From the NCBI RefSeq assembly GCF_012295575.1, contig NZ_CP051180.1, positions 2,728,001-2,792,000 on the forward strand: a stretch of 64,000 bases of DNA. The letters are read 5' to 3'. Source of the DNA: Ferrimonas lipolytica. Lineage in GTDB: Bacteria; Pseudomonadota; Gammaproteobacteria; Enterobacterales; Shewanellaceae. How positions within the stretch are numbered: the stretch's first letter is position 1; each line of letters begins with the position of its first letter. Shown here piece by piece: positions 1,583 to 58,376 of this stretch. Made by a program: the position numbers and the translations under genes. The notes beneath the pieces were generated by a model. It made no database searches, was not told the origin of the DNA, and saw only the letters and a program-made list of their open reading frames with translations.

Positions 1583-1603
1583 TCCGCCAATAGCGCCAGT
1601 TTT

Positions 1604-1637
1604 AAAGGCCAGTCAGAGCAATCCGACTGGCCTTTTT
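1604..1637 (+). terminator. Rho-independent terminator after the GntP permease
   Basis: AAAGGCCAGTC (1604-1614) pairs with GACTGGCCTTT (1625-1635) around a 10-base loop and runs into a T-tract. The 11-bp stem and T-run are textbook. Confidence 0.9.
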
Positions 1638-1644
1638 GTTTGGT

Positions 1645-3030
1645 CGTAGGGGCGCTCATGAGCGACCTCGACCGCAACCTCGACCGCAACAGCAGCCTCA
1701 AGCACAACCGCAATGGCACCGTTCTCAACCTCAGCGAAGGTCAATCACGATTGCCCCTACCGCACCATTGCCCCAACAACATTCACCTGCCCAGACGTAG
1801 GGGCGCTCATGAGCGACCGCAACCTCGGCTACAACCTCGACCGAAGCCTCGACCGCAACCTCGGCCGCAACAGCAGCCTTGAGCACAACCGCAATGGCAC
1901 AGTTTTCAACCTCAACGAAGGTCAATCACGATTGCCCCTACCGCAATCACCCTTGCCCCAACAACATTCACCTGCCCAGACGTAGGGGCGCTCATGAGCG
2001 ACCGCGACCAAGACCGCAACCTCGACCGCAACAGCAGCCCCGAGCGCAACCTCAATGGCACCGTTCTCAACCTCAGCGAAGGTCAATCACGATTGCCCCT
2101 ACCGCACCATTGCCCCAACAACATTCACCTGCCCAGACGTAGGGGCGCTCATGAGCGACCTCGACCGAAGCCTCGACCGCAACCTCGGCCGCAACAGCGG
2201 CCTTGACCGCAATCACCATTGCCCCAACAACATTCACCTGCCCAGACGTAGGGGCGCTCATGAGCGACCGCGACCAAGACCGCAACCTCGACCGCAACAG
2301 CAGCCCCGAGCGCAACCTCAATGGCACCGTTCTCAACCTCAGCGAAGGTCAATCACGATTGCCCCTACCGCACCATTGCCCCAACAACATTCACCTGCCC
2401 AGACGTAGGGGCGCTCATGAGCGACCGCAACCTCGGCTACAACCTAGACCGCAACAGCAGCCCCGACCACAACCTCAATGGCACAGTTTTCAACCTCAGC
2501 GAAGGTCAATCACGATTGCCCCTACCGCACCATTGCCCCAACAACATTCACCTGCCCAGACGTAGGGGCGCTCATGAGCGACCGCAACCAAGACCGCAAC
2601 CTCGACCGCAATAGCAGCCCCGAGCACAACCTCAATGGCACCGTTCTCAACCTCAGCGAAGGTCAATCTCGATTGCACCCACCGCAATCACCATTGCCCC
2701 AACAACATTCACCTGACCAGACGTAGGGGCGCTCATGAGCGACCGCAACCTCGGCTACAACCTCGGCCGAAGCCTCGACCGCAACCGCAATGGCACAGTT
2801 TTCAACCTCAGCGAAGGTCAATCACGATTGCCCCTACCGCAACCACCATTGCCCCAACAACATTCACCTGCCCAGACGTAGGGGCGCTCATGAGCGACCG
2901 CGACCAAGACCGCAACCTCGACCGCAACCTCGACCGCAACAGCAGCCTTGAGCACAACCGCAATGGCACAGCTCTCAACCTCAGCGAAGGTCAATCACGA
3001 TTGCCCCCACCGCAATCACCACAGTCCGAC
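1645..3030. repeat. Intergenic tandem array of nine ~110-185-bp units
   Basis: Nine units begin with the same sequence, CGTAGGGGCGCTCATGAGC, at 1645, 1796, 1981, 2138, 2247, 2404, 2561, 2722 and 2877. The successive spacings are 151, 185, 157, 109, 157, 157, 161 and 155 bp. Each head contains the 12-bp palindrome CGCTCATGAGCG. Most units close with GCCCCTAC, the inverse complement of GTAGGGGC at the head, so each is a ~115-bp segment bounded by an 8-bp inverted repeat, followed by a ~35-bp linker. Inside, a short motif (CTCGACCGCAAC and variants) recurs one to three times, which explains most length differences; unit 4 (2138) lacks the closing part. The array fills the space between the convergent permease and sulfotransferase genes, outside both terminators. 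Many overlapping open frames run through it, but none has a ribosome site or protein-like composition. Confidence 0.92.
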
Positions 3031-3073
3031 AACGATTCCTTTTCGACAATTGTCACGTTAATACAAACCTAAA

Positions 3074-8177: not shown

Positions 8178-8467
8178 GGCTGTGTCACAGTTAAGTGTTG
8201 AGGTTTATATCAAGCCTTCGGCTGTACCGATTGCAGTACTCTTAGGGGTTGCGTCGCAGTGCCGACAGCACATTCTTGTATGCATTAGGGGGGAGCTTCG
8301 CCCGCTTTGGAATCCCCCTTGCCTTAGGTCGCCGTCCAAAACGCTTCGCTGAACTGCTCCAATGCGGCAGAAGATCAATAGCGGTAGTGCTTTACCCTTG
8401 TATCGCGACTCTCCTAGCCAGCGCTTTAACAGCCTTGGAAAGAGCAACACTTAATTGGTACACAGCC
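8178..8467 (+). mobile_element. MITE-like element, copy 1 (full length, 290 bp)
   Basis: The copy opens with GGCTGTGTCACAG and closes with GGTACACAGCC, imperfect inverted repeats of about 23 bp. It contains the family core GCACATTCTTGTATGCATTA followed by a G-run. It is flanked by CTTTTTTT and TTTTTTGT, so the 8-bp target duplication is near but not perfect, possibly blurred by slippage in the T-run. There is no transposase; its short open frames are not conserved as proteins. It is inserted in the U-tract of the nitroreductase terminator. Confidence 0.85.
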
Positions 8468-12282: not shown

Positions 12283-12575
12283 GGCTGTGTCGTAGTTAGC
12301 TGTTGAAGTTTATCTTAAGCCTTCGGCTTCACCGATTTCGGTGCTTTTAGGCGAGGATGTCGCGACGGCGACGGCACATTCTTGTATGCATTAGAGGGGG
12401 GCGCTTCGTCCCCTTTGGAATACCCCTTGCCTTACGTCGCCGTCCAAAACGCTTCGCTGGACTGTTCCAATGCAGCAGAAGATCAACGGCGGTAGTGCTT
12501 TGCCCTTGTATCAACACTCGCCTAGCCGCTGCGTTAACAACCTTGGAATGAATAACACTTAGTTGGTACACAGCC
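12283..12575 (+). mobile_element. MITE-like element, copy 2 (full length, 293 bp)
   Basis: It runs from GGCTGTGTCGTAG to GGTACACAGCC with the family core around 12374-12400. Flanks are CTTTTTTA on the left (the U-tract of the preceding terminator) and TCTTTATT on the right, similar but not identical. Overall it is closely similar to copies 1, 4 and 5. Confidence 0.87.
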
Positions 12576-21064: not shown

Positions 21065-21265
21065 AACTGTGTAACAGTTAGGTGTTGAGGTTCACATCAA
21101 GCCTTAGGCTCAACAAATTGCAATACTATTAATGGTTTATGTCGCGGTGGCGACGGCACATTCTTGTATGCATTAGGGGGGGGGGAGCTCCGCCTCCTTT
21201 GGAATCCCCCTTTGCCTTAGGTCGCAGTCCAAAATGCTTCGTTGAGCTGCTCCAATGCGGCAGAA
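21065..21265 (+). mobile_element. MITE-like element, copy 3 (decayed, right end missing)
   Basis: The left end is degenerate (AACTGTGTAACAG) but continues into the family sequence GTGTTGAGGTT, the core GCACATTCTTGTATGCATTA, a run of ten G (longest in the family) and the block ending CTCCAATGCGGCAGAA. The remainder, including the right inverted repeat, is lost. Confidence 0.75.
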
Positions 21266-21328
21266 ATCGATAAAGGCGTTTATCTTGATGATGCAAACCA
21301 TGGAAGTGCGCTAAGCCACACCATTGAC

Positions 21329-27339: not shown

Positions 27340-28542
27340 CTAAGTGCGCTTGCGGCTCCAGCCCATCGCTTGATGAGCCAGCTGCCGCTTCCATGTTGGG
27401 CTCAACGCCATCGACAACAGGCCGCAATTGCGTCCCAACGCCATCAATCGCGATGAATTCGAAAACAGTTTTACTAAGCCGTCGGTCAATCCGGTGACCC
27501 GTGAACGGTCATCCTCACGGCTATCAGCGTAGGCTTGCACTATCGCATAGTCGCCAGGATCTTGTTGACGCTGCAGGGCAACATCAAGTTGCTCCACCAG
27601 CGTGGCCACATCGCGTAAACCAAGGTTAAAGCCTTGCCCAGCAATCGGATGCACGGTTTGGGCCGCGTTACCAATCAGTACACTGCGGTGGTGATGCACC
27701 CGCTCTGCTTTGCACAAGGCCAGTGGGTAGCTAGCGCGAGCGCCAACTTTTTCTATCAATCCCAGCCGCTGCCCAAACGCCTGCTGCAGTTCCAGTTTAA
27801 AGGCTTGTTCGTCCAACGCTAAACGGCGTTGCGCCTCATCATCGCTTTGTACCCATACAAGTGAATAACGGCCGTCACTCATTGGCAGCAGAGCCAATGG
27901 GCCTTCACTGGTAAAACGCTCGTAAGCGGTTACGCCATGTTCGGCACAGCTGATGTTAGCGATAACGGCTGTTTGTTGATAAGGCTGACGCTCTAAATCG
28001 ATATTAAGACGCTGCCGCACCTGTGACATGGTGCCATCGGCACCGACAACCAACTTGGCATTAAGCTGTTGGCCGTCGTTAAGGGTAAGTTCCACCTGAT
28101 GCTGACGCTGAGTTAATGCAGTTAAAGCATTAGGACAATACAACTCAACGGTAGATTCTGTTAAGCGTTGCCACAGGGCTGGGCCAGTTCGCTCCAACTC
28201 AACCACATGGCCAAGACTGTCGACATCATATTCCGCCGCTGTCATCGCAACGCCACCGAAGTGGCCACGATCGGAAACTTCAATACGCTCGATAGTGGCG
28301 GCATTGGCGGCAATGGCAGACCATAGCTGCAACCCTTTAAGGGTATCGACCGACCCTGCTGCTAATGCAATAGCGCGGCTGTCATAGCCAGGGTGGCGAG
28401 TGCCATTAACTTCGTTGGCTTCAATTAACGCTACTTGGTAGCGTTCGCCATTGGGGCCTTTTAGCTGTGCCAATGACAGCGCTAAGCATGCCCCGGCCAT
28501 GGCGCCACCAACAATGGCAATGTCGACCTGTTTTGTGGTCAA
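27340..28542 (-). CDS. ubiH: FAD-dependent 2-octaprenyl-6-methoxyphenol hydroxylase UbiH
   Basis: UbiH performs the C1 hydroxylation of the ubiquinone ring. FAD motifs are QVDIAIVGGAMAGACLALSLA at the start, KLVVGADGTMSQVRQ in the middle and SVLIGNAAQTVHPIAGQGFNLG near residue 300; note Asn in place of the usual Asp in GNAAQ, as seen in other UbiH proteins. I place the start at a TTG (28542) because AGGGGA lies eight bases upstream and gives the usual length of 400 residues. The upstream in-frame ATG (28707) would add 55 residues unlike the family. A MITE copy separates this gene from pepP. Confidence 0.9.
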   Translation of the reverse strand: MTTKQVDIAIVGGAMAGACLALSLAQLKGPNGERYQVALIEANEVNGTRHPGYDSRAIALAAGSVDTLKGLQLWSAIAANAATIERIEVSDRGHFGGVAMTAAEYDVDSLGHVVELERTGPALWQRLTESTVELYCPNALTALTQRQHQVELTLNDGQQLNAKLVVGADGTMSQVRQRLNIDLERQPYQQTAVIANISCAEHGVTAYERFTSEGPLALLPMSDGRYSLVWVQSDDEAQRRLALDEQAFKLELQQAFGQRLGLIEKVGARASYPLALCKAERVHHHRSVLIGNAAQTVHPIAGQGFNLGLRDVATLVEQLDVALQRQQDPGDYAIVQAYADSREDDRSRVTGLTDGLVKLFSNSSRLMALGRNCGLLSMALSPTWKRQLAHQAMGWSRKRT

Positions 28543-28787
28543 AAAGGCTTCCCCTAATCCTGCGCCTATCGATACTATCGCTACCCGAGCCCCTTTCCTG
28601 ACGGTAAAGTTAAGCTCTGTCGCAGCGGCAGCAATCCATCTTGTTGAGCGATTGTGTTCACAATAGGGAAAGAACTCAAGTGAAGAGTCACAGGTGAGTG
28701 AGAACATTTGAAGCCATCACCGCTTAACTCCACCGTTGTGCATGAGTTGATAAGGGTTAACGCTGTTGAACCTAAGCGATAAAAAAA

Positions 28788-29067
28788 GCTGTGTCGTAGT
28801 TAAGTGTTGAGGTTTATATCAAGCCTTCGGCTCTGCCGATTTCGGTGTTTTTAGGGGACGATGTCGCGGTGGCGACGGCACATTCTTGTATGCATTAGGG
28901 GGGAGCTTCGCCCCTTTACCTCAGGTCGCAGCCCAAAACGTTTCGCTGGACTGCCCCAATGGGCCAGAAGAACAATATGGTAGTAGTGCGTTACCCCTTG
29001 TCTCGGGACTCGCCTAACCGGTGCATTAACAGCATTGGAAAGAACAACACTTAGTTGCTACGCAGCC
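28788..29067 (+). mobile_element. MITE-like element, copy 4, with perfect 8-bp target duplication
   Basis: The 280-bp copy runs from GCTGTGTCGTAG (first G lost or read as A) to GCTACGCAGCC. It is flanked by TAAAAAAA at 28780-28787 and again at 29068-29075, a perfect 8-bp direct repeat. The right repeat is the U-tract (minus strand TTTTTTTA) of the pepP terminator. The insertion splits the usual pepP-ubiH operon. Confidence 0.9.
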
Positions 29068-29073
29068 TAAAAA

Positions 29074-29103
29074 AAGCGAAACCGCATCGCTGCGGTTTCG
29101 CTT
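29074..29103 (-). terminator. Terminator of pepP
   Basis: AAGCGAAACCGCA and TGCGGTTTCGCTT form a perfect 13-bp stem. On the minus strand it runs into TTTTTTTA, duplicated by the MITE insertion. Confidence 0.88.
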
Positions 29104-29127
29104 CTAACAACACTAACTTGGTGACGT

Positions 29128-30429
29128 TCAACCAGCCATAAGTGCTTCAATATCGGCAATTTCTTTGACAACCGAAGCGGTCATATTGATGTGGCCGTCG
29201 GCAGTAATGGCAATGTTATCTTCGATACGCACTCCAATTCCTTGCCACTTCGGATCAACGTCTGCATCAGGAGCGATATACAGGCCCGGCTCGATGGTCA
29301 GCACCATACCTTGCTCCAGTGGCCGGGTACGATCTGCACTGTAGTAGTCACCGACATCATGCACATCCAAGCCCAACCAATGGCCTAGGCCATGCATGTA
29401 AAACTTCTTATAGGCTTCGGTTTCGATCAGCTCAGCCACCTCGCCCTGCATAATGCCAAGTTCGACCAAACCGCCAACCATGATCTCCAATACCTTAGCA
29501 TTGGCTTGTTTAATGGCAACGCCAGGTTTAAGCATCGAAATCGCGGCTTTCTCAGCGTTCAAAACCAAGGTGTACAGTGCTTTTTGCTCGTCGCTAAACT
29601 TACCGTTAACTGGGAAGGTACGGGTAATGTCACCAGCGTAACCGCGATATTCAGCACCAGCGTCAATCAATACCAAGTCGCCGCTCTTCAGCTCACACTC
29701 GTTTTCGGTGTAATGCAAAATACAGGCGTTTTCACCACCACCAACAATGGTGCCATAGGCCATCTCCAAGGCTCCATTCATGGCGCAGTGGTGTTTGATT
29801 TCCGCTTCCAGCTGGTATTCGAACATGCCTGGCTTACACACCTGCATCGCTCGGGTATGGCCTTCAGCAGACAAACGCGCCGCCGTCGCCATCAACTCAA
29901 GCTCGGCATCGGATTTGTGCAGCCGTAGTTCGTGCAAAATGGTACGGAGGTCTTGTACCTGAGTCAGCGCTTTAAGGCCCTGACGCTGCCCAACTCGGAG
30001 GGTCGCAAGCAGGCTTGCTACCGCTTCATCTTCTCGGCTGGAGAAGCCATTGCGATGCAGCAATACATCAAAGCCGCTTACCAGCAGCGGCAACTCCTTA
30101 GCGAGGTCATCAATGCTGTAAGCCGCATCTACCCCTAGGGCATCCGGTGCACGTTCAGCGCCTAAGCGACGGCCGTGCCAGATCTCCATCATCTCGTCAC
30201 GAGGACGCACAAATATCACCGATTCCGGCGTTTGCCCTTTGCGTAACAGCAACAATGCATCAGGCTCATTAAACCCGGTGAGGTAAAACAGGTCGCTGTC
30301 TTGGCGAAAACGATATTCGGTATCGTTAGAGCGGGTTACTTCAGCAGAGCCGTATACCAGAGCTACGGAATTTTCTGGCATCTGCGCCAGCAACTGCTGG
30401 CGATGAGAGGCGGCTAGGGCTTGATCCAT
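29128..30429 (-). CDS. pepP: Xaa-Pro aminopeptidase (peptidase M24B)
   Basis: PepP removes N-terminal residues preceding proline in the cytoplasm, using two manganese ions. The 433-residue product has a creatinase-like N-domain and a pita-bread catalytic domain. Metal ligands are visible: two aspartates in DAGAEYRGYAGDITRTFP, His in HGLGHWLGLDVHDVG and glutamates in TIEPGLYI and VRIEDN. A TTG immediately upstream is in frame, but AAGGA fits the ATG at 30429. It follows ygfB by 37 bp. Confidence 0.96.
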   Translation of the reverse strand: MDQALAASHRQQLLAQMPENSVALVYGSAEVTRSNDTEYRFRQDSDLFYLTGFNEPDALLLLRKGQTPESVIFVRPRDEMMEIWHGRRLGAERAPDALGVDAAYSIDDLAKELPLLVSGFDVLLHRNGFSSREDEAVASLLATLRVGQRQGLKALTQVQDLRTILHELRLHKSDAELELMATAARLSAEGHTRAMQVCKPGMFEYQLEAEIKHHCAMNGALEMAYGTIVGGGENACILHYTENECELKSGDLVLIDAGAEYRGYAGDITRTFPVNGKFSDEQKALYTLVLNAEKAAISMLKPGVAIKQANAKVLEIMVGGLVELGIMQGEVAELIETEAYKKFYMHGLGHWLGLDVHDVGDYYSADRTRPLEQGMVLTIEPGLYIAPDADVDPKWQGIGVRIEDNIAITADGHINMTASVVKEIADIEALMAG

Positions 30430-30466
30430 CAAAGGTGTCCTTCACTAATTAGTTAACGTACAGCGA

Positions 30467-36442: not shown

Positions 36443-36731
36443 GACCGTGTACCAACTAAGTGTTGCTCTTACCAATACAGTTAAAGCACCGGAAAGGCGA
36501 GTGTTGATACAAGGGGAAAGCACTACCACCGTTGATCTTCTGCCGCATTGGAGCAATCCAGCGAAGCGTTTTGGACGGCGACCTAAGGCAAGGGGATTCC
36601 AAAGGGGGCGGAGCTCCCTCCTAATGCATACAAGAATGTGCCGTCGCCACCGCGACACCCTTCCCTAAAGCACCGACATCGGTGAAGCCGAAGGCTTAAG
36701 ATAAACTTCAACAGCTAACTACGACACAGCC
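36443..36731 (-). mobile_element. MITE-like element, copy 5 (full length, 289 bp, reverse)
   Basis: Read on the minus strand it starts GGCTGTGTCGTAG and ends with the degenerate right repeat GGTACACGGTC. The family core lies at about 36624-36643. Flanks are ACAAAAAA and CCCCAAAA, not a clean duplication. It sits directly behind the terminator of yihD (minus strand) and upstream of the DUF2797 gene. Confidence 0.85.
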
Positions 36732-42922: not shown

Positions 42923-42996
42923 GGCTGTGGACCAATTAAGTGTTGTTCTTTCCAATGCTGCTAAAGCATTGGCTAGGCGAGTCGCGATACAAAGGG
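42923..42996 (-). mobile_element. MITE-like element, copy 6 (74-bp fragment of the right end)
   Basis: It starts with GGCTGTGGACCAATTAAG, the right inverted repeat read in reverse, and matches the family as far as ACAAAGGGG before diverging. The other end and the core are missing. Confidence 0.72.
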
Positions 42997-56366: not shown

Positions 56367-56576
56367 GTCTGTGTATCAATTAAGTATTGTTGTTCTTTCC
56401 AATACAGTTAAAGCACTGGCTAGGCGAGCGCCGACACAAGGGGTTAAGCAATGCCGCCGTTGACCTAATGCATACAAGAATGTGCCGTGCCACCGCAACC
56501 ATCCTCCCTCAAAAGCGCCGAAATCAGAGAAGCCAAAGGCTTAAGATAAACTTCAACAACTGACTACGACACAGCC
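56367..56576 (-). mobile_element. MITE-like element, copy 7 (internally deleted, perfect 8-bp target duplication)
   Basis: In reverse orientation it runs from GTCTGTGTATCAATTAAG to CTACGACACAGCC with about 80 bp of the interior missing. TAAATTAT occurs immediately on both sides (56359-56366 and 56577-56584), a perfect 8-bp direct repeat. It lies between the zincin-like gene and rsbR. Confidence 0.88.
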
Positions 56577-58107: not shown

Positions 58108-58376
58108 GGCTGTGTCGCAGTTAACTGTTGAGGTTTATATCTAGCCTTCGGCTCTACCGATGTCGCAGTGGCGACGGCACATTCTTGTACGCATTAGGGG
58201 GGGCTCCGCCCCTTTGGAATCCCCCTTGTCTTAGGTCGCAGTCCAAAACGCTGGGCTGGGCTGGATAGCTCCAATGCGGCGCAAGATCATAGGCCGTCAT
58301 GCTTGTTATTTGTGTCTATATCTACCTAACCGCTGCATTAACGATATTAGAAATAACAATTATCTGGTGCACTGCC
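58108..58376 (+). mobile_element. MITE-like element, copy 8 (269 bp)
   Basis: Runs from GGCTGTGTCGCAG to the degenerate right end GGTGCACTGCC. The core GCACATTCTTGTACGCATTA carries one change from the family. Flanks TTTACTGT and TAAAAAGG do not match. The end of the left flank (58085-58100) resembles internal MITE sequence (AAGCTTCGCCCCCC), a hint of nested or recombined copies. Confidence 0.8.

Follow-up and report, generated by a model that had tools for sequence, protein, structure and literature searches.

The window, that is, the whole 64,000-nt stretch of DNA analyzed here, comprises positions 2728001-2792000 of the single-contig 4.13-Mb genome of Ferrimonas lipolytica and contains eight copies of a MITE (Table 1). 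Copy 4 is located between pepP, whose closest named homologues are from Ferrimonas (83, 80 and 67% identity), and a ubiH-like oxygenase gene. It is flanked by an exact 8-bp repeat, TAAAAAAA/TTTTTTTA, that is identical at 28780-28787 (T at 28780 followed by A at 28781-28787) and at 29068-29075. The stem of the pepP terminator, GCGAAACCGCA-tcgc-TGCGGTTTCGC, directly adjoins the second of these repeats and extends to 29074-29103 when the outer A:T pairs are counted. The earlier note had proposed that the insertion duplicated the U-tract of this terminator, and the same 8-mer is indeed found, without a mismatch, on both sides of the element.

In three Ferrimonas relatives, there is no terminator at this site, and pepP is directly followed by the ubiH-like gene. 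Therefore, judging from this sequence comparison, the terminator must have arisen in the F. lipolytica lineage, before the arrival of the element. The gap between the two genes is about 590 bp here (window 28536-29128) and includes both the terminator and the MITE. The start at 28707 of the open reading frame of the ubiH-like gene is probably too far upstream because homology begins only near 28536. An Rfam search near copy 4 yielded only a sub-threshold chance match, and the pepP stem had no other match of note in a 59% sample of the genome.

Four of the eight copies in the window (1, 2, 4 and 5) are located at terminators, as the earlier note had stated. Copies 1 and 2 start at the T-runs of terminators with hairpin dG values of −18.3 and −15.9, respectively, and copy 5 adjoins the yihD hairpin, with a decayed duplication CTTTTGGG on the stem side versus CTTTTTTG on the far side. 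Of the remaining four, two are partial (21067 and 42924) and two are located away from terminators (56367 and 58108). The nitroreductase gene next to copy 1 has an element-free terminator or a terminator-like hairpin in three Ferrimonas relatives.

Table 1. Copies of the MITE, features of the pepP locus and remnants of the transposase gene. Positions refer to the window, except for those with the prefix G000:C1, which refer to the genome of F. lipolytica.
Feature	Position	Strand	Remarks
MITE copy 1	8178..8467	+	inserted into the nitroreductase terminator (U-tract), with the stem to its left
MITE copy 2	12283..12575	+	inserted into the RCC1-lipoprotein terminator (U-tract)
MITE copy 3	21067..21270	+	3'-truncated; target duplication not recoverable
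Far copy of the 8-bp target duplication	28780..28787	.	TAAAAAAA (TTTTTTTA on the minus strand)
MITE copy 4	28788..29067	+	280 bp; TIR GCTGTGTCGTAGTTA..CTACGCAGCC
Stem-side copy of the 8-bp duplication	29068..29075	.	U-tract of the pepP terminator
Hairpin of the pepP intrinsic terminator	29076..29101	-	dG about −22.8 kcal/mol with the flanking A:T pairs
pepP, Xaa-Pro aminopeptidase-like gene	29128..30432	-	name from the earlier note; homologues found
MITE copy 5	36443..36731	-	at the yihD terminator; duplication decayed on the stem side
MITE copy 6	42924..42996	-	one-end fragment
MITE copy 7	56367..56576	-	internally deleted; target ATAATTTA; no terminator
MITE copy 8	58108..58376	+	without a clean duplication; no terminator call
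Decayed IS1595 transposase copy	G000:C1:3637573-3638508		stop codons; both TIRs kept
Decayed IS1595 transposase copy	G000:C1:3351131-3351479		internally deleted

The MITE family and its target motif

The MITE is present in more than 200 copies in the genome. A search with its core motif found 235 matching places, and a search with a family profile built from 18 copies yielded 202 chained matches, 145 of them full length, in the 59% sample (2.42 Mb of 4.13 Mb, made up of the window and 118 stretches of 20 kb taken at even intervals). The consensus is about 290 bp long, is bounded by the TIRs GGCTGTGTCGTAGTTAGCTGTTGA and GGCTGTGTACCAACTAAGTGTTGT, and, being shorter than 500 bp and devoid of a transposase gene, is that of a MITE. 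Among the 144 full-length copies with flanks, the exact duplication at fixed boundaries was 8 bp long in 51 cases and 7 bp in 15, while lengths of 5, 6 or 9 bp were represented by 4-7 copies each. Given this peak at 8 bp, the duplication at copy 4 is not due to chance. An 8-bp target duplication (TSD) could be placed with at least six of eight matching positions in 128 of the 144 copies, and the 128 reconstructed targets have a symmetric motif in common, with about four G/C-rich bases on each side of an A/T-rich 8-mer (about GSSC-W8-GSSC), so that there is a sharp GC-to-A/T junction at all target sites. The possibility that the two GC collars pair with each other, as a palindromic hairpin around the TSD, was also considered, and no excess of such pairing was observed. 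No elements longer than the MITE that share its TIRs were found in the 59% sample of its own genome, and an exact scan of GTDB genomes for the core motif gave no match outside the F. lipolytica genome.

Several tandem arrangements were encountered. About seven tandem units of the MITE core, of 175-200 bp and lacking TIRs, are located between two genes at L060:5757-7153 (G000:C1 about 1003357-1004753), and TIR-less tandem pairs of the core are also present in a Ferrimonas relative (G010, L154/L156); it may be that the core is a repeat in its own right, apart from the transposon. At L057:14991-15899, MITE copies themselves are tandemly arranged, and AAATAAAA duplications connect at least two of them. 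A further array between two genes, at window positions 1598-3038, consists of about eight units of about 155-180 bp that are unrelated to the MITE.

Insertion sites are enriched in terminators

A terminator was called when the reconstructed empty site had a hairpin with a dG of −8 kcal/mol or lower, the 3' arm of which runs into a T-tract overlapping the 8-mer; terminators are therefore predictions from hairpin energy and T count, and genes were called with a simple hexamer model. The duplicated 8-mer was the U-tract beside a hairpin at 67 of the 128 sites (52%), as compared to 2.5% of 4,000 random intergenic positions. Controls with identical 8-mers led to an expectation of 30 sites (about 23.5%), and PWM-matched controls to 21. 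Joint matching for the GC content of the core, the length of the homopolymer and the GC collars on both sides led to 27 expected versus 57 observed sites. The earlier note had postulated target choice for sites with a hairpin plus a T-run, and had made this dependent on an enrichment that persists once AT-rich 8-mers are controlled for. The excess does persist beyond the sequence controls, with about 48% of the copies at non-terminator sites.

The occupancy of T-runs leads to the same picture. Intergenic T-runs of at least 5 nt were occupied in 57 of 511 cases with a hairpin versus 5 of 1166 without; for T-runs with a stem-side collar of at least 3/4 GC, the values were 53/417 (12.7%) and 2/270 (0.7%). 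For T-runs that follow a co-directional gene at a distance of up to 150 bp (collar at least 2/4), they were 51/290 and 1/140, an approximately 25-fold difference. Overall, a hairpin beside equivalent T-runs raised the odds of occupancy by a factor of 20-30, or about 20 at the same stem-side GC. Occupancy also increased with stem stability, from 0.4-0.5% at dG > −8 up to 17% at dG < −20, and with the length of the T-run, from 6% at 5 nt up to 29% at 8 nt. Furthermore, the insertions are registered on the stem: at 63 terminators, the TSD starts between −4 and +3 from the stem end (7.9 per bp), whereas the density in the adjoining bins is about 0.4 per bp, roughly 20 times lower. A second peak of TSD starts at −40 to −25 presumably reflects the opposite side of bidirectional hairpins.

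Either end of the MITE can face the stem (30 versus 27 cases), so that the orientation check proposed in the earlier note revealed no preference. Insertion into another repeat family with a repeated stem was rejected as an explanation, since the 67 terminator stems differ and include many unrelated sequences. No age difference was observed between terminator and non-terminator copies.

Copies outside of terminators and the gene context

The 61 copies without a terminator (about 48% of 128) have inserted into the same type of GC-collared A/T 8-mer. Thus, the choice of terminators is a strong preference that is added to a sequence preference. At these sites, no excess of hairpins over matched controls was found, and hairpins without a T-run were not preferred.

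Sites with a hairpin and a T-run that can end the transcription of a flanking gene (convergent gaps and the sense strand of tandem gaps) were occupied in 63 of 391 cases, whereas the same structures in other orientations were occupied in only 3 of 103 (odds ratio 6.4, p = 1.4e-4). In tandem gaps, the insertion was 3' of the stem, in the sense direction, in 27 of 29 cases. Non-terminator copies also favor convergent over divergent gaps, about 3-fold, and selection therefore accounts for part of the bias toward convergent and tandem-sense sites. Part of the terminator enrichment, too, can be due to purifying selection; the difference between 63/391 and 3/103, however, favors a link to transcription.

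Related IS1595 elements in other genomes

A search of relatives for the TIR pattern led to a 1,023-bp IS that is present in the Ferrimonas genomes G011 and G008 and encodes a 315-aa transposase with a zinc-ribbon/HTH N-terminus. The transposase scored 174 and 185 bits against NF033547 (IS1595; cut-off 75), PF12762 and NF050000 also matched above their cut-offs, and the zinc-ribbon profile PF12760 matched below its own. By these profile matches, it is a DDE transposase of the IS1595 family. Nearly all IS1595 copies whose two ends could be paired have an exact 8-bp TSD. The TIRs of the MITE match those of the G008 IS at 22 of 24 positions and those of a remnant in its own genome at 16/18 and 14/18. 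The shared TIRs and the common length of the TSD suggest that an IS1595 transposase moved the MITE copies. No intact IS1595 transposase gene was found in the F. lipolytica genome, only two decayed copies, and the partner is read as now extinct in this genome. The remnant at 3637573-3638508 is located at a non-terminator site and has a near-perfect 8-bp duplication (TATTAAAA/TATTAAAG). The ISL3 family was also considered, but has no member in the genome; two weak matches to PF01609 are present.

All scorable copies of the 1,023-bp IS (seven of seven) are located at terminators: in G011, the exact 8-bp duplication is the terminator U-tract in five of five copies, and in G008 both copies with usable flanks are in terminator U-tracts. 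A 1,032-bp sister IS from Aeromonas-like hosts, found in genomes of one genus and on named Aeromonas plasmids, is at terminator U-tracts in 12 of 17 copies, with one loose call (L307) entered as negative; in one complete genome, five of five copies are at terminators. In contrast, none of nine more distant or different IS1595 elements is at a terminator (19/24 versus 0/9, p = 5e-5). The 19 of 24 also exceed the 8-mer-matched expectation of 23.5% (p = 1e-8), which was derived from F. lipolytica and is only a yardstick for other genomes. Terminator targeting appears to be a trait of a single clade of IS1595 transposases. In the tree, the terminator-type elements form two well-supported groups, and an Azotobacter copy that is not at a terminator is placed near them, so that the tree does not establish a single origin of terminator targeting. 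Shorter derivatives in a third Ferrimonas genome, G010, are at terminators in 12 of 15 cases; these elements (L278-L294), mostly of 490-620 bp and with the same type of TIR, represent a separate family.

Proposed mechanism and alternatives

With a probability of nearly 90%, we consider the MITE to be a non-autonomous element that was mobilized by an IS1595 transposase, now pseudogenized in this genome, and that combines an A/T 8-mer target with a strong preference for terminator U-tracts. An IS1595-family DDE transposase would mobilize the approximately 290-bp element with the TIR GGCTGTGTCGTAGTTAGCTGTTGA and join it to a target cut with an 8-bp stagger, A/T-rich and bordered by G/C on both sides. 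A U-tract 3' of the hairpin of an intrinsic terminator would be strongly preferred in addition. In such a case, the 8 bp that are cut would be the U-tract itself, and repair would duplicate it; therefore, hairpin and U-tract would remain together on one side, and transcription could still end before the element. Terminators that carry an element are thus likely to stay functional, and the safe-harbour strategy of the earlier note concerns a benefit that we infer.

How the transposase would recognize a terminator can be envisaged in two ways, the odds of which are about equal. It might respond to DNA structure, without any role of transcription, that is, to a hairpin-prone inverted repeat beside an A-tract, either as a cruciform or as a sharp GC/A-tract junction. 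The graded increase of occupancy with the stability of the stem and the length of the T-run, as well as the GC-to-A/T junction at all sites, would be expected in this case; however, the same structures are rarely used in the non-terminating orientation (3/103), and non-T-run sites have no excess of hairpins, so that we regard recognition of DNA structure as quite conceivable, though at somewhat less than even odds. Alternatively, the transposase might be attracted by the RNA polymerase complex in the act of termination or by the exposed U-tract duplex, a possibility that we advance with some reserve. It agrees with the orientation of the occupied sites (63/391 versus 3/103), with the sense-strand position of 27 of the 29 tandem-gap insertions and with the indifference to hairpins that lack a T-run, but selection against insertion upstream of genes could give part of the bias, and non-terminator sites are used as well. 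That the IS1595 clade finds its targets via terminating transcription complexes, or via a structure that they expose, and thereby leaves both transcription units intact, is accordingly no more than a tentative proposal.

A mere sequence preference, in which a GC-collared A/T 8-mer is required and the hairpin is irrelevant, is very improbable. It would account for the symmetric motif over all sites and for the non-terminator sites, which have the motif without a hairpin excess, but it is largely refuted by the approximately 2-fold excess that is left after matching of 8-mer, homopolymer length and GC collars, by the odds ratio of about 20 for T-runs with equal stem-side GC, and by the scaling of occupancy with hairpin dG. 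Least probable is survivorship after broad insertion, with copies persisting mainly 3' of genes because they are harmless there: the approximately 3-fold over-use of convergent versus divergent gaps even by non-terminator copies is in its favor, but insertions are registered on the U-tract to a few bases, hairpin T-runs 3' of co-directional genes are still about 25 times more occupied (51/290 versus 1/140), and the targeting is likewise seen in other genomes for IS copies with exact TSDs.

Relation to known systems and implications

Class C (IIC) group II introns insert beside the hairpins of intrinsic terminators; they move by RNA-based retrohoming, in a defined orientation and without a TSD, whereas the Ferrimonas MITE is a DNA transposon with an 8-bp TSD. 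To our knowledge, few DDE transposons select sites of transcription control. The nearest parallel would be the promoter targeting by TnGBS and ISLre2: the Mutator-like DDE transposases of the TnGBS, ISLre2 and ISKra4 groups target sites 15-17 bp upstream of sigma-A promoters (PMC3942029). These elements likewise choose a transcription-control site, but TnGBS and ISLre2 insert at promoters in an oriented manner, whereas the MITE inserts at terminators without orientation and probably depends on a different transposase family. With other IS1595 elements, the elements described here share the NF033547/PF12762 transposase with its zinc-ribbon/HTH N-terminus, the IS length of about 1 kb and the A/T-rich 8-bp TSD; ISApl4 of the IS1016 subgroup, for example, has A/T-rich 8-bp repeats and is mostly intergenic (PMC12561309). 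Terminator targeting, in contrast, is seen here in only one part of the family (19/24), and none of the more distant members shows it (0/9). MITEAba12 of Acinetobacter and other bacterial MITEs are also short, with IS-shared TIRs, a TSD and A/T-rich targets (PMC6382973); for MITEAba12, a 9-bp TSD and no trend in target sequence were reported (PMC6382973), whereas the Ferrimonas MITE inserts at a defined target and in register with a regulatory site. The pneumococcal SPRITE is also a terminator-linked short repeat, but is itself terminator-like (PMC10969869), whereas in Ferrimonas the terminator belongs to the host and serves as the target. In open-access full text, we found no report of terminators as targets of IS1595 elements or of a MITE, although earlier knowledge may exist.

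Terminator targeting by a simple IS offers a direct route to asking how a transposase recognizes a regulatory site. If the terminating complex is what is recognized, a DNA transposon would read the termination map of the cell, insert just past it and duplicate the U-tract. The targeting helps to explain how the genome tolerates so many copies, and it could be exploited as a tool for insertion between genes that leaves the genes themselves undisturbed. A further consequence is that, in genomes of this kind, a MITE is frequently located at an annotated terminator: in the 59% sample, about 18% of the T-run terminators that have a GC collar and follow a gene at a distance of up to 150 bp are occupied by one.
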